A stretch of DNA of 64,000 nt, from the NCBI GenBank assembly GCA_026125795.1, contig JAHCKM010000002.1:1426001-1490000 (forward strand), written 5' to 3'. How positions within the stretch are numbered: the stretch's first letter is position 1; each line of letters opens with the position of its first letter. The notes under the pieces are model-generated. The model was given only the letters and a program-made list of their open reading frames with translations. It was not told the origin of the DNA and did no database searches. The DNA comes from Burkholderiaceae bacterium (GTDB lineage Bacteria; Pseudomonadota; Gammaproteobacteria; Burkholderiales; Burkholderiaceae_C). Shown piece by piece: positions 16,735 through 21,604 of this stretch. A program made the position numbers and the translations under genes.

Positions 16735-18333
16735 ATGATCGCAACGCTCAAGTCCCGCGCGCGCCTGCTGCCGATCGCGGCGGCCGCCATCGGCGCCGTC
16801 GCTGGTGCCGCGCTCGTGCCGGCCCATGCCTCGAGCCACCGCGAGGCGCCGGCCATCACGCTGCGTCCCAAGGTGGACGGCACCGACTTCTACATGTTCA
16901 ACAGCTACGACCCGGCTCGCGCGGGCTACGTGACGCTGATCGCCAACTACCAGCCGCTGCAGGCCCCGTACGGCGGCCCGAATTACTTCTTGATGGACCC
17001 GAACGCGCTGTACGAGATTCACATCGACAACGATGGCGACAACCGCGAGGACATCACCTTCCAGTTCAAGTTCAATAACAACCGAAAGAACGTCGAGCTG
17101 GACATCGCCGGCCAGAAAGTCGCCATTCCGCTGGTGCAGGCGGGGCAGGTCGCCGATCGCAACGCGGCTGCGCTGAACGTCAACGAAACTTTCACCGTCG
17201 ATGTCATGCGCGGCTCGCGCCGCCAGAAGGCGAACGACGCCACCAAGCTGAAGCACGTGTCCGGCGGCGGCTCGACGTTCGACAAGCCGGTCGACAACAT
17301 CGGCACCAAGACCATTCCGGACTACAAGGCCTACGCAGACAAGCACATCTATCAGGTCAACATCCCGGGCTGCAACCAGCCGGGGCAGTTGTTCGTGGGC
17401 CAGCGCAAGGAGCCGTTCGCGGTGAACCTGGGCACGATCTTCGATCTGGTCAATGCGCCGGTGAGCTTCATCGCCGATCGCGCGAACGCCGGTCTGGTCC
17501 CCAACACGATCGACGACGCCAACATCACCACGCTCGCACTCGAAGTGCACAAGACCTGCCTGACCAAGGGCAACGACCCGGTGATCGGCGGCTGGACGTC
17601 GGCCAGCATTCGCCAGGGCTCGCTGTCGTTCGACAAGCCATTCCTGAACTTCAGGTTTCCCGAGGATGTCGGCGGCCCGTGGACGCAGGTGTCGCGCCTG
17701 GGAATGCCCCTGGTCAACGAAGTCGTGATCGGTCTTCCCGACAAGGATCTGTTCAACGGCAGTCAGCCCAAGGACGATGCGAAGAACTTCCTCAAGTACG
17801 TGACCAACCCGACGCTGCCGCGCCTGCTGGAAATCGCGCTCGACAAGGATCCGGCTTTCGGCGGCACGGCCGAGGGCAAGATCGCGCCGAAGAACTTTCC
17901 GCGCACGGACCTGATGAACGTCTTCCTGACCGGCATCGCGGGTGTGAACCGTCCCGCCAACGCCAATGTAGGCTCAGAAATGTTGCGGCTGAACACCAAC
18001 TCGGCCGTGACCAAGGAGGCGGATCAGAACCCGCTCGGGCTGGCCGGCGGCGACCCGGCAGGCTTCCCGAACGGGCGGCGTCCGAAGGACGACGTGGTCG
18101 ACATCTCGCTGGTCGCGGTGGCTGGTGGCCTGTGCGTGGCCAACGGCGACAACAACGCGCTGGGCTTGAACAGCTCGCTGGGCGCCACCAGTGCGTGCAA
18201 GCCGTCCTCGGTGCCGCTGGGCCCGACGTCTTTGCAGCTACACGACGGTGTTGACCAGTCCAAGATCCCGCTGCTGCCGACGTTCCCCTACCTGTTCACG
18301 CCGACGCCGGGCTCTGGCGCCGGTTCGAACTGA
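16735..18333 (+). CDS. Secreted DUF4331 domain protein
   Basis: A 532-residue protein with an N-terminal signal peptide ending near AHA (about residue 32) and then the DUF4331 hallmark SSHREAPAI, followed by DGTDFYMFNSYDP and repeated beta-rich segments. DUF4331 proteins are exported and of unknown biochemical role. Two Cys pairs in the mature part suggest disulfides. A small lipoprotein gene follows 10 bases downstream and is probably co-expressed. No recognisable promoter was found upstream; a GGAACC hexamer at 16674 lacks a correctly spaced partner. Confidence 0.85.
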   Translation: MIATLKSRARLLPIAAAAIGAVAGAALVPAHASSHREAPAITLRPKVDGTDFYMFNSYDPARAGYVTLIANYQPLQAPYGGPNYFLMDPNALYEIHIDNDGDNREDITFQFKFNNNRKNVELDIAGQKVAIPLVQAGQVADRNAAALNVNETFTVDVMRGSRRQKANDATKLKHVSGGGSTFDKPVDNIGTKTIPDYKAYADKHIYQVNIPGCNQPGQLFVGQRKEPFAVNLGTIFDLVNAPVSFIADRANAGLVPNTIDDANITTLALEVHKTCLTKGNDPVIGGWTSASIRQGSLSFDKPFLNFRFPEDVGGPWTQVSRLGMPLVNEVVIGLPDKDLFNGSQPKDDAKNFLKYVTNPTLPRLLEIALDKDPAFGGTAEGKIAPKNFPRTDLMNVFLTGIAGVNRPANANVGSEMLRLNTNSAVTKEADQNPLGLAGGDPAGFPNGRRPKDDVVDISLVAVAGGLCVANGDNNALGLNSSLGATSACKPSSVPLGPTSLQLHDGVDQSKIPLLPTFPYLFTPTPGSGAGSN

Positions 18334-18343
18334 GGAGCCAGGC

Positions 18344-18625
18344 ATGAAGCAGATGAAGTCATGGCTGGCAGTCGCAGGCGCCGTACTTGCACTTGCCGCT
18401 TGCGGCGGAGGCGGAGGCGACAGCGTCGACCCGGGCACCGGACAGGCGGATCCCCTGGACGGCGTACCGGCCGAAGCCACCGAGTCGGTCTCCGCCTGGA
18501 TCGGCTATCTGGCACGCCTGATCAAGGCAACCGAGGTCGACGACCGCGATCCGGTCGCCCCGACAGGACCGGGCCCGAGCACGCTTCCTGTCGACGACGA
18601 AGGTGAGCCCATCGCGCCAGCCTGA
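18344..18625 (+). CDS. Small predicted lipoprotein
   Basis: 93 residues. The N-terminus MKQMKSWLAVAGAVLALAAC is a lipoprotein signal with lipobox LAAC at about residues 17-20, followed by a glycine run and an acidic, Pro/Asp-rich remainder with no recognisable domain. It lies 10 bases after the DUF4331 gene with a GAGGAG site between, and is followed by a clear terminator. I do not recognise a family; a partner role for the DUF4331 protein at the outer membrane is an inference from adjacency only. Confidence 0.75.
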   Translation: MKQMKSWLAVAGAVLALAACGGGGGDSVDPGTGQADPLDGVPAEATESVSAWIGYLARLIKATEVDDRDPVAPTGPGPSTLPVDDEGEPIAPA

Positions 18626-18652
18626 GACGTACATTCGGCAGGTCCAACCGCA

Positions 18653-18681
18653 GCGTCGCCGCCACAAGCGGCGGCGCTTTT
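18653..18681 (+). terminator. Rho-independent terminator after the DUF4331/lipoprotein pair
   Basis: GCGTCGCCGC (18653-18662) pairs with GCGGCGGCGC (18668-18677) over a CACAA loop, ten pairs with one G-U, followed by TTTT. It sits 28 bases after the lipoprotein stop and separates this unit from the thrS leader. Confidence 0.8.
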
Positions 18682-18735
18682 CGCGTTGTTGGGATTGAAA
18701 TGCCATAGGACGCACCGGATTCAGGTTCACTGGCC

Positions 18736-18741
18736 TAGAAT
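18736..18741 (+). promoter_or_regulatory. Probable -10 element of the thrS leader transcript
   Basis: TAGAAT lies about 40 bases upstream of the Thr-rich leader peptide start, in the only gap between the preceding terminator and the leader. No convincing -35 hexamer is present 16-18 bases upstream, so the promoter is inferred from the -10 and the position. Confidence 0.35.
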
Positions 18742-18780
18742 GAAACCGTCTCGCAACCCACAAGGACTGGGAAGGGCGCC

Positions 18781-18825
18781 ATGGTTATGACACCGCGAAC
18801 GACCGGTACCACCACCGATACCTAG
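18781..18825 (+). CDS. Thr-rich leader peptide of thrS
   Basis: A 14-codon open frame, [14 protein letters not shown], ending in TAG. Seven of 14 codons are Thr (ACA, ACG and five ACC), including three in a row at 18808-18816. A GAAGGG Shine-Dalgarno at 18771-18776 is well spaced. It is followed 45 bases later by a strong terminator and then thrS. This is the layout of ribosome-mediated attenuation: stalling at Thr codons when charged tRNA-Thr is scarce would expose an antiterminator strand. In E. coli thrS is instead controlled by a translational operator. Too short for standard gene callers. Confidence 0.78.
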
Positions 18826-18827
18826 TC

Positions 18828-18894
18828 GGCCGCGCGCGCACGCCCATACCTCCCTTGATCCATCACGAAGCGCGGCCCCAGCCGCGTTTTTTTT
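18828..18894 (+). promoter_or_regulatory. Attenuator of thrS: mutually exclusive antiterminator and terminator
   Basis: Terminator: CGCGGC (18871-18876), loop CCCA, GCCGCG (18881-18886), then eight T (18887-18894). Antiterminator: GGCCGCGC (18828-18835), just after the leader stop codon, is an exact reverse complement of GCGCGGCC (18870-18877), which contains the 5' arm of the terminator. A ribosome finishing at the stop codon would mask 18828-18835 and allow termination; one stalled upstream on Thr codons would leave it free. Pairings are seen; the mechanism is inferred. Confidence 0.78.
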
Positions 18895-18932
18895 CGTCTT
18901 GTCTTTCGTTCGTTTGCCAGGAATTTGACGCC

Positions 18933-20852
18933 ATGATCACGATCACGCTGCCTGATGGTTCGCGCCGCGAGTTTGCGCAGCCCCCGACCGTGGGCGACGT
19001 GGCCACGTCGATCGGCCCCGGACTGGCCAAGGCCGCGCTCGCTGGCCGTGTGGAGGTGGACGGCAAGCCGAGGGTGGTCGACCTGAGCCACCGGCTCTCG
19101 CAAGACGCCAGGCTGGCGATCGTCACCGACAAGGATCCCGACGGCCTGGAGATCCTGCGACATTCCACAGCGCACCTGCTGGCTTACGCGGTGAAGGAGC
19201 TGTTCCCCGACGCGCAGGTGACGATCGGGCCGGTGGTCGAGAACGGCTTCTACTATGACTTTGCCTACAGCCGCCCGTTCACGCCGGAGGATCTGGGGCG
19301 CATCGAGCAGCGCATGGCCGAGCTGGCGAAGAAGGACGAGCCGGTCACGCGGCGCGTGTTGCCGCGCGACGAGGCGGTGGCGTACTTCAAGGGCCTGGGC
19401 GAGCATTACAAGGCCGAGATCATCGGCGGCATTCCGCCCGGCGAAGAGGTGTCGCTGTACCGTGAGGGCGGCTTCGAGGACCTGTGCCGCGGCCCGCATG
19501 TGCCGAGCACGGGGCGGCTGAAGCACTTCAAGCTGATGAAAGTCGCCGGCGCCTACTGGCGCGGCGACCAGAACAACGAGCAACTGCAGCGCATCTACGG
19601 CACGGCCTGGGCCAGCAAGGACGAGCTGCAGGCCTACCTGCGCATGCTCGAGGAGGCCGAGAAGCGCGACCACCGCAAGCTCGGGCGTGAGCTGGACCTG
19701 TTCCACATGGACGAGCACTCGCCCGGGCTGGTGTTCTGGCACCCCAACGGCTGGCTGGTATGGCAGCAGGTGGAGCAATACATGCGCGCGGTCTACCGCG
19801 ACAACGGCTATCACGAGGTCAAGGGACCGCAGATCCTCGACCGCAGCCTGTGGGAGAAGACGGGCCACTGGGACAACTACCGCGACAACATGTTCGTCAC
19901 GGAGTCGGAGAAACGCGAGTACGCGCTCAAGCCGATGAACTGCCCCGGCCACGTGCTGATCTTCAAGCAGGGCATCAAGAGCTACCGTGACCTGCCGCTG
20001 AGATACGGCGAGTTCGGCCAGTGCCATCGCAACGAACCCAGCGGCGCGCTGCACGGCATCATGCGCGTGCGCGGCTTCACGCAGGACGACGGCCACATCT
20101 TCTGCGCGGAGGATCAGATCCTCGACGAGTGCGTCGCCTACACGGCGCTGCTGCAGAAGGTCTACAAGGACTTCGGCTTCAGCGAGATCATCTACAAGGT
20201 GGCCACGCGGCCGGACAAGCGCGTGGGCTCCGACGCGTTGTGGGACAAATCAGAGCAGGCACTGATGGAATCGCTGCGCCGCTCGGGCTGCGAGTTCTCG
20301 GTCTCGCCCGGGGACGGCGCCTTCTACGGTCCCAAGATCGAGTACACGCTGAAGGACGCCATCGGCCGCCAGTGGCAGTGCGGCACGATGCAGGTGGACT
20401 TCAACATGGCCGAGCGGCTGGGCGCCGAGTACGTCACCGAATCCAGTGGCCGAGCCCACCCAGTGATGTTGCACCGAGCCATCGTCGGCAGCCTCGAGCG
20501 CTTCATCGGCATCCTGGTCGAGCAACATGCCGGCGCATTGCCGGCCTGGCTGTCGCCGCGCCAGGCGGTGGTGGCCCCGATCACGGAACATCAGGCCGAT
20601 TACGCGTCCGAGGTCGCGAAACGGCTTCAAAAACAAGGGGTTAGGGCGGCGGCCGATTTGCGGAGCGACAAAATCAGCTATAAAATCCGCGAGCATTCGA
20701 TGCAGAAGGTCCCGTACATCCTGGTCGTTGGCGACAAGGAAAAGGCAAGCGGGGCCGTTTCGGTGCGCGCCCGGGGCAACGTAGACCTTGGTGCGATGTC
20801 GGTCGATGCCTTCTCGGCGAAGATTGCAGGCGACATCGCGCAAAAGGTTTGA
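18933..20852 (+). CDS. thrS: Threonyl-tRNA synthetase
   Basis: A 639-residue class II synthetase that charges tRNA-Thr. It has an N-terminal TGS domain (1-60), an editing domain with [18 protein letters not shown] (HxxxH), the catalytic core with motif 2 around [19 protein letters not shown], and a C-terminal anticodon-binding domain. The length matches E. coli ThrS (642). The ATG at 18933 is the first residue of the TGS domain; the frame extending to 18855 is leader. It is preceded by the attenuator and followed by infC, the same order as in E. coli. Confidence 0.97.
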
Positions 20853-20923
20853 GCCTTCGGCGCGCTTTTGCTTTTGTTTGCAGCCCTTCGCTTGCCTGAC
20901 GGGTTGTTGAAAGGATCCACACC

Positions 20924-21472
20924 ATCGCTACCTTTTTCGACCGTCGTACTCCCAACGCCGAGCGCAAGCATCGGCTCAACCGAGAAATCACCGCACCGCA
21001 GGTGCGCCTCAACGGGCCCGACAACGAACCCCTGGGCATCGTGCCCCTGATGGAAGCGTTGCGCTTGTCCGGTGAATACGACGTGGACCTGGTGGAGATT
21101 GCAGCCACAGCCGATCCGCCGGTGTGCCGGCTGATGGACTACGGCAAGTTCAAGTACCAGGAGCAGAAGAAGGCGGCGGAAGCCAAGAGCAAGCAGAAGG
21201 TCATCGAGGTCAAGGAAGTCAAGTTCCGTCCGGGTACGGACGAGGGCGACTACGCCATCAAGATGCGCAACCTGCGCCGCTTCATCGCAGACGACGGCGA
21301 CAAGGGCAAGGTGACGTTGCGCTTCCGCGGCCGCGAGATCACGCACCAGGACATCGGCATGCGACTGCTCGAGCGCATTCGCGACGAGTTGGCCGATGTG
21401 GCGGTGGTCGAGCACATGCCCAAGCTCGAAGGCCGCCAGATGGTGATGGTGCTGGCACCAAAGAAGAAATAG
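20924..21472 (+). CDS. infC: Translation initiation factor IF-3, starting at AUC
   Basis: A 182-residue IF-3. Homology runs upstream of every ATG/GTG/TTG in frame: the N-terminal segment beginning [19 protein letters not shown] is encoded from 20927, and the only codon suited to initiation is ATC at 20924, eight bases after AAAGGA (20910-20915). IF-3 discriminates against non-AUG starts, and infC in many bacteria uses AUU for autoregulation; AUC here would serve the same feedback. A caller restricted to usual starts would begin at GTG 21002 and lose 26 residues. The protein then matches E. coli IF-3 (180 residues) in length. Confidence 0.92.
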
Positions 21473-21604
21473 CGGCCATTCAGTTTCACGCCCCAGCCGA
21501 GGTTTGGTCGCCGAGGCTGCAGGCATAAAAGCCCGCCACAGGCCCGATCAAGTGGGGCGCTTCGAGCGCTTCCGCCTGCGGCAGCAACTCAAGAAGGAGC
21601 AGTC

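Follow-up and report, generated by a model that had tools for sequence, protein, structure and literature searches.

Results

The thrS locus

The window, our term for the whole 64,000-nucleotide stretch of Burkholderiaceae DNA analysed here, holds an open frame that we take to be thrS, a name that rests on the sequence and on a preliminary description of this DNA. Relatives of the gene, mostly of full length, occur in 99/100 genomes of the family (E <= 0.001). The open frames downstream of thrS presumably correspond to infC, rplT, pheS and pheT, which they resemble. The infC-like frame (21002-21472) begins at GTG and encodes 156 amino acids, which we take to be short for IF3, so that a non-standard start further upstream is likely. 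The elements upstream of thrS are collected in Table 1.

Table 1. Elements of the thrS leader region, with positions counted from the first nucleotide of the window
Feature	Position	Strand	Remarks
-10-like hexamer TAGAAT	18736..18741	+	similar position in most leaders; poor -35 in the window
Conserved block CAAGGACTGGGAAGGGC with the leader ribosome-binding site	18761..18777	+	kept in relatives
Near-invariant core GGTTATGACACCGCGAAC	18783..18800	+	codons ACA CCG CGA AC(G/T)
Leader frame, start at the second ATG (probable)	18787..18825	+	12 codons; from the sequence and relatives
Region 1, putative anti-antiterminator 5' side, within leader codons 2-7	18790..18807	+	predicted duplex with region 2
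Region 2, putative antiterminator 5' side, directly past the stop codon	18828..18835	+	complement of 18870-18877
Region 3, terminator 5' arm	18867..18876	+	antiterminator partner 18870-18877
Region 4, terminator 3' arm plus eight-T run	18881..18894	+	from the sequence
thrS, threonyl-tRNA synthetase, the presumed controlled gene	18933..20852	+	ATG at 18933; open frame

The reading frame at 18781-18825 is ATG GTT ATG ACA CCG CGA ACG ACC GGT ACC ACC ACC GAT ACC TAG, with Thr at 7/14 sense codons. The preliminary description had proposed a 14-codon leader with seven Thr codons; the frame is indeed present, but its start appears to be misplaced. Initiation at the upstream ATG (18781) would lengthen the leader by two codons relative to 18787, and it is the second ATG, not the first, that is kept in relatives. 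The leader is therefore most likely 12 codons long, and its true start is probably 18787. The 18-nt core that spans this start has a single perfect match in its own genome and five further sites, each with 3 mismatches.

Past the stop codon, GGCCGCGC (18828-18835) is the exact reverse complement of GCGCGGCC (18870-18877), confirming the 8-base complementarity reported earlier. The hairpin at 18867-18890 has 10 pairs, including two G-U, and a loop of 4; it was also found in the terminator scan and runs into eight T at 18887-18894. The terminator with eight T that was reported earlier is thereby confirmed at 18867-18894. In the window, the predicted duplexes reach -15.6 kcal/mol for region 1 with region 2 and -20.0 kcal/mol for region 2 with region 3. 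The global minimum free energy of the 191-nt leader was no better than that of shuffles (z -0.27) and is uninformative, and the surrounding 4 kb hold 3 terminator-like sites, equal to the shuffled mean of 3.1.

The leader in relatives

Sequence preceding thrS was gathered at 270 loci: 93 from the window's own family, 80 named loci (genome_contigs) that are the best matches of a longer list, 57 from other Burkholderiales families and 40 from other orders of the class. For the family sample, 90 loci were taken from the 99 genomes with a match, 9 being left out (partial genes, contig ends, low-ranked); the order sample covers 60/146 matching genomes and the class sample 40/105, both picked for spread. 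Taking the leader core to be GGTTATGACACCGCGAAC, with no more than 3 mismatches allowed and a start codon required, we found it at 80/93 loci of the own family, 49/80 of the best-matching named loci, 10/57 loci of other Burkholderiales families and 0/40 in other orders; one locus with a core that lacked the start codon (L064) was excluded. Leader-bearing named loci include those of Roseateles terrae (L041), Hydrogenophaga sp. (L039) and Rhodoferax ferrireducens (L101). The core is thus absent from 13/93 family loci and from most sampled loci of other families.

A second rule, blind to DNA similarity, was applied to the family, other-family and other-order sets and looked for a short frame with R-T and a further Thr nearby. 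It picked out 73/93 family loci, 17/57 loci of other families and 0/40 in other orders, against 4.1, 1.6 and 1.3 in shuffled sequences. The 17 loci come from 13/38 other families sampled, and one of them (L205) resembles a chance match. The small frame first described in the window is therefore kept in its family, and related thrS leaders of different sequence lie upstream of the gene in other Burkholderiales families. When 300 Burkholderiales genomes were scanned with at most 1 mismatch, the core was present in 35, once per genome, while the reversed core pattern had zero matches in the same 300. All 30 of the 30 places checked among the 35, the window's included, sit 113-223 nt upstream of thrS. 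Judged from these sequences, the likeliest reading of the distribution is a predicted thrS attenuator that is widespread yet patchy in Burkholderiales.

Removal of 7 near-duplicates from 139 leaders gave 132 dereplicated leaders, 87 of which are 12 or 13 codons long. From the sixth codon to the last, Thr accounts for 291/1160 codons in frame, compared with 18/1160 and 29/1160 when the same codons are read in the other two frames and with 87.5 +- 8.7 in nucleotide-shuffled leaders. Two Thr codons only are present in 18/132 leaders. Codons 2-5 are almost frozen (ACA in 129, CCG in 131, CGA in 121 and ACT in 118, with ACG in 14, the window's own codon 5 being ACG); codons 6 and 7 encode Thr in 95 and 61 of the 132, by several synonymous codons. 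In 75 thrS genes from loci that have the leader, three of the frozen codons are rare: among Thr codons, ACA accounts for 3.2% and ACT for 4.2%, and among Arg codons CGA accounts for 3.0%. What is conserved is a near-invariant rare-codon core more than a Thr run, and this core pairs with the stretch past the stop.

Transcript start and ribosome-binding site

The promoter test covered 130/132 leaders, and -10-like hexamers were concentrated 46-60 nt 5' of the leader ATG in 86/130. The promoter score of leaders was barely above shuffled (9.4 vs 8.6), and in the window a consensus sigma-70 scan of 17500-21500 found no promoter. The hexamer in the window would place the transcript start at about 18748, and the cluster of such hexamers upstream of the leader speaks against a transcript that starts downstream of 18894. 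The block CAAGGACTGGGAAGGGC is present in 118/132 leaders, with its GAAAGG positions 98-100% conserved among those 118 and a block-to-ATG distance of 9 or 10 nt in 115/118. The leader ribosome-binding site matches the 16S 3' end found in the window's own genome.

Terminator and competing pairings

By sequence, a terminator is present in 130/132 leaders of relatives, as against 15/132 when the downstream stretch is dinucleotide-shuffled. Removal of two weak terminators (L023, L058) reduced the set from 132 to 130 leaders, and in 122 of these the 9 nt scored after the hairpin include five or more T. A GCGG/CCGC anchor is shared by 124 terminators, and the anchored pairs hardly vary. At the next position loopward, C-G (36), A-T (20) and T-A (15) all occur, the position being paired in only 73/124.

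Both competing duplexes are stronger than those with shuffled linkers: linker:region 3 has a mean z of -1.40, with p <= 0.05 in 40% of 130 leaders, and region 1:linker a mean z of -1.05, with p <= 0.05 in 26% of 130. The per-leader significance of the 2:3 and 1:2 pairings is thus modest, and on average both alternative stems beat shuffled linkers, which upholds the earlier proposal of alternative structures. Own 2:3 pairs scored -13.86 vs -12.93 (sd 0.18) for swapped ones. In a block test of 128/130 leaders, core:linker pairing scored -10.84 vs -8.56 shuffled and was the stronger in 102/128. Within the family, region 1 is too uniform for covariation to bear on the 1:2 pairing. Pairing of the SD with the linker was slight (-10.76 vs -9.65 shuffled and -10.22 swapped). 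CAAGG/CCTTG in the window had suggested that the linker might also pair with the 5' block (-38..-20); this was rejected, as the score of -7.73 was no better than the -7.90 of shuffles.

When linkers and regions 3 were swapped across families, the own pairing was best in f32 and in f1, a group (120) that includes named loci of mixed Burkholderiales taxonomy, and best by only 0.01 in 'other'; in f4, the own pairing (-13.30) was no better than that with other f4 members (-13.49). These f4, f32 and other sets, in which some starts or members may be wrong, were dereplicated within groups and not between them.

Dependence on ribosome position

Folding was masked by the ribosome: at the stage when region 4 is still to be made, we folded just the RNA 3' of the ribosome, placed either on the Thr codons (stalled) or at the stop, or else the RNA with the ribosome absent. 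The switch was measured as the energy needed to free region 3, in kcal/mol. For the window, stalled, at-stop and absent states gave 10.5, 4.8 and 3.5 kcal/mol, the stalled value exceeding all 10 shuffles. In the predicted fold of the window with no ribosome, the leader codons are paired with the stretch around the stop; with the ribosome stalled, GGCCGCGC:GCGCGGCC is formed; with the ribosome at the stop, region 3 is nearly free for the terminator.

Across 130 leaders the three states gave 7.8, 5.4 and 3.1 kcal/mol, vs 6.0, 5.5 and 5.1 kcal/mol for shuffles. The stalled value exceeded the absent value by more than 2 in 102/130 leaders vs 30% of shuffles, and the at-stop value by more than 2 in 70/130 vs 26%. 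The stalled energy lay above the mean of a leader's own shuffles in only 83/130 leaders.

Two further families, f4 and f32, whose stems differ in sequence, show the same pattern; they were analysed, along with a mixed set, under a slightly different definition of region 3. The leader rule (R-T plus another Thr), the presence of a terminator and dereplication kept 23/34 f4, 16/32 f32 and 19/56 other leaders, L205 being removed for want of a terminator. Stalled, at-stop and absent states gave 8.0, 2.3 and 4.4 kcal/mol in the 23 f4 leaders (shuffled 5.4, 5.1 and 5.7), with stalled minus stop above 2 in 22/23 vs 20% of shuffles. The 16 f32 leaders gave 6.2, 1.8 and 3.9 kcal/mol (shuffled 4.8, 4.0 and 4.4), with such a difference in 12/16 vs 31%, and the 19 leaders of the mixed set gave 6.5, 5.0 and 4.0 (shuffled 5.3, 4.9 and 5.2), with 10/19 vs 25%. 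Folding that goes beyond shuffles in three families thus supports, in silico, the earlier claim that the two structures exclude each other, stalling favouring antitermination and arrival at the stop favouring termination.

Once the whole terminator is included, equilibrium folding prefers it whatever the ribosome state (mean 0.88 stalled, 0.96 at the stop and 0.97 absent; 0.99 in the window when stalled). The states are therefore told apart only when RNA that still lacks region 4 is compared, and the switch would have to be kinetic, the choice falling while the RNA is being transcribed, as known attenuators are assumed to work. Frame and Thr bias, terminator, competing pairings and dependence on ribosome position are all found in silico in three families.

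Discussion

We predict, with a probability of about 85%, that the thrS leader is a ribosome-mediated transcription attenuator. The parts that an attenuator is built from are found here in silico: a frame of cognate codons, an intrinsic terminator, an antiterminator favoured by stalling and a 1:2 anti-antiterminator. Transcription would begin near 18748, and a ribosome would start the leader at 18787. When charged tRNA-Thr is plentiful, the ribosome would reach the stop and cover region 2, the 3:4 terminator would form and the polymerase would halt before thrS. When charged tRNA-Thr is scarce, the ribosome would stall at the Thr codons (2, 5, 6 and later) and cover region 1; region 2, left unoccupied, could then pair with region 3, which would permit read-through into thrS. 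With no ribosome, region 1 would hold region 2 and the terminator would form. The transcript start, termination in the cell, the dependence on tRNA-Thr charging and the kinetic nature of the choice are what we infer from this arrangement. Beyond the preliminary description, the analysis adds the probable start at 18787, a region 1 within the leader codons that pairs with region 2, a core more invariant than the Thr run and a distribution that is wide but patchy.

It is tempting to speculate that the core itself is the sensor module, a reading that we consider unlikely. A newly initiated ribosome would meet rare ACA, CGA and ACT within five codons, on the very RNA that serves as the anti-antiterminator. 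On this view no more than two Thr codons would be needed, with the Thr run setting a tunable gain. Perhaps ThrRS reads the core as well, in which case one element of about 40 nt would tie together the start of leader translation, the decoding of rare codons and the amount of enzyme.

Alternatively, the core could be bound by ThrRS or some other factor, like the E. coli thrS operator, with the Thr leader secondary. Its conservation at the nucleotide level, with almost no synonymous change in codons 2-5, would suit a binding site, as would its persistence where the Thr run is short (18/132 leaders with two Thr). However, codons 6 and 7 often change synonymously with the amino acid kept (Thr in 95 and 61 of 132), the switch with ribosome position exceeds shuffles in three families, and other families have the same architecture with a different core. 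The constancy of the core is explained at least partly by its pairing with region 2, and we regard a binding site as quite improbable.

An attenuator is also to be preferred to a hairpin that acts as a constitutive terminator of upstream transcription, whether from an upstream gene or, in other families, from tRNA-Val, with the thrS promoter downstream and the Thr frame mere decoration. The tRNA-Val gene directly upstream and in the same direction at 39/60 order-sample loci, and the similar hairpin retained by some leaderless relatives, speak for such a terminator. The restriction of the Thr bias to the reading frame, the conservation of both the antiterminator pairing and the -10-like hexamers upstream of the leader, and three scanned loci of the own family with no such tRNA argue against it and make it very improbable. 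We find it scarcely plausible that the leader affects translation of thrS or mRNA decay and not termination: while the terminator forms in all states at equilibrium, a T run follows the hairpin (at least 5 T of 9 nt in 122/130), and the leader stop in the window, 107 nt upstream of thrS, would be too far for simple coupling. A T-box riboswitch reading tRNA-Thr directly can be set aside, for although the core includes ACCGCG, a string of the T-box consensus, and thrS is under T-box control in Gram-positives, Rfam finds no T-box at its gathering threshold in the window. At 18600-18960, Rfam searches up to E = 5 returned no T-box and no leader family, the single match being unrelated and sub-threshold.

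Leader-peptide attenuators are known in enterobacteria for trp, his, thrLABC, pheA and pheST. They share with the predicted thrS attenuator the cognate leader codons, regions 1:2, 2:3 and 3:4 and a terminator before the first gene; the differences here are the gene, thrS, the host order, Burkholderiales, and a near-invariant rare-codon core with a variable Thr tail. In E. coli, ThrRS binds its own mRNA, at anticodon-like stem-loops by the thrS ribosome-binding site, and blocks translation. That translational operator likewise exerts feedback on thrS in the 5' leader, whereas a leader peptide and terminator would do so here. In Gram-positives, the RNA of the thrS T-box reads tRNA directly, and tRNA-Thr charging likewise controls a terminator before thrS, whereas no T-box was found here. 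The type of switch is thus known, and the gene is controlled otherwise in E. coli. If the prediction is true, attenuation would be a third solution for thrS, beside translational self-repression in E. coli and the T-boxes of Gram-positives. A prediction of a thrS attenuator may already exist in print; Lopatovskaya et al. (2010), cited in PMC4833913, reportedly deal with attenuators of operons for amino acids and aminoacyl-tRNAs and may include one.

Attenuation of synthetase genes has precedents. PMC1262725 names pheST as a classical attenuator, so a synthetase gene can be under such control, and predicts attenuators for trpS and leuS in Streptomyces, classical ones on synthetase genes as here, for other amino acids and in another phylum. 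For Streptomyces lividans, PMC8079986 proposes a thrL upstream of thrS, with 18 codons, two of them Thr, on a leaderless transcript, its terminator being unclear according to the authors. This thrL shares with our leader a Thr-codon frame upstream of thrS and differs in its phylum and in bearing no likeness to MTPRT by eye. Within the part of the open-licence PubMed Central literature that was covered, we found no leader-peptide attenuator of thrS in Proteobacteria.

The element is compact and conserved, and its losses and exchanged stems form a natural series that would offer a way to study the origin of attenuators. Many genomes could also gain annotation of a small frame that gene callers have likely missed.

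Several leaderless relatives (family loci L021, L024, L133, L152 and L153, named loci L059 and L061) retain, by eye, a hairpin of the GCGCGG type just past a promoter-like site, in many cases followed by a T run. This looks like a loss of leader and linker that spared the terminator. A tRNA-Val (GAC) gene lies directly upstream of thrS or its leader, in the same direction, at 39/60 order-sample loci (L177-L236); all 39 are among the 57 loci from other families, and the three own-family loci scanned (L232-L234) have no such tRNA upstream. The attenuator may have arisen between the tRNA gene and thrS. Four Burkholderiales genomes (G131, G176, G216, G431) carry a second, more distant full-length thrS with 56-59% identity to that of the window.
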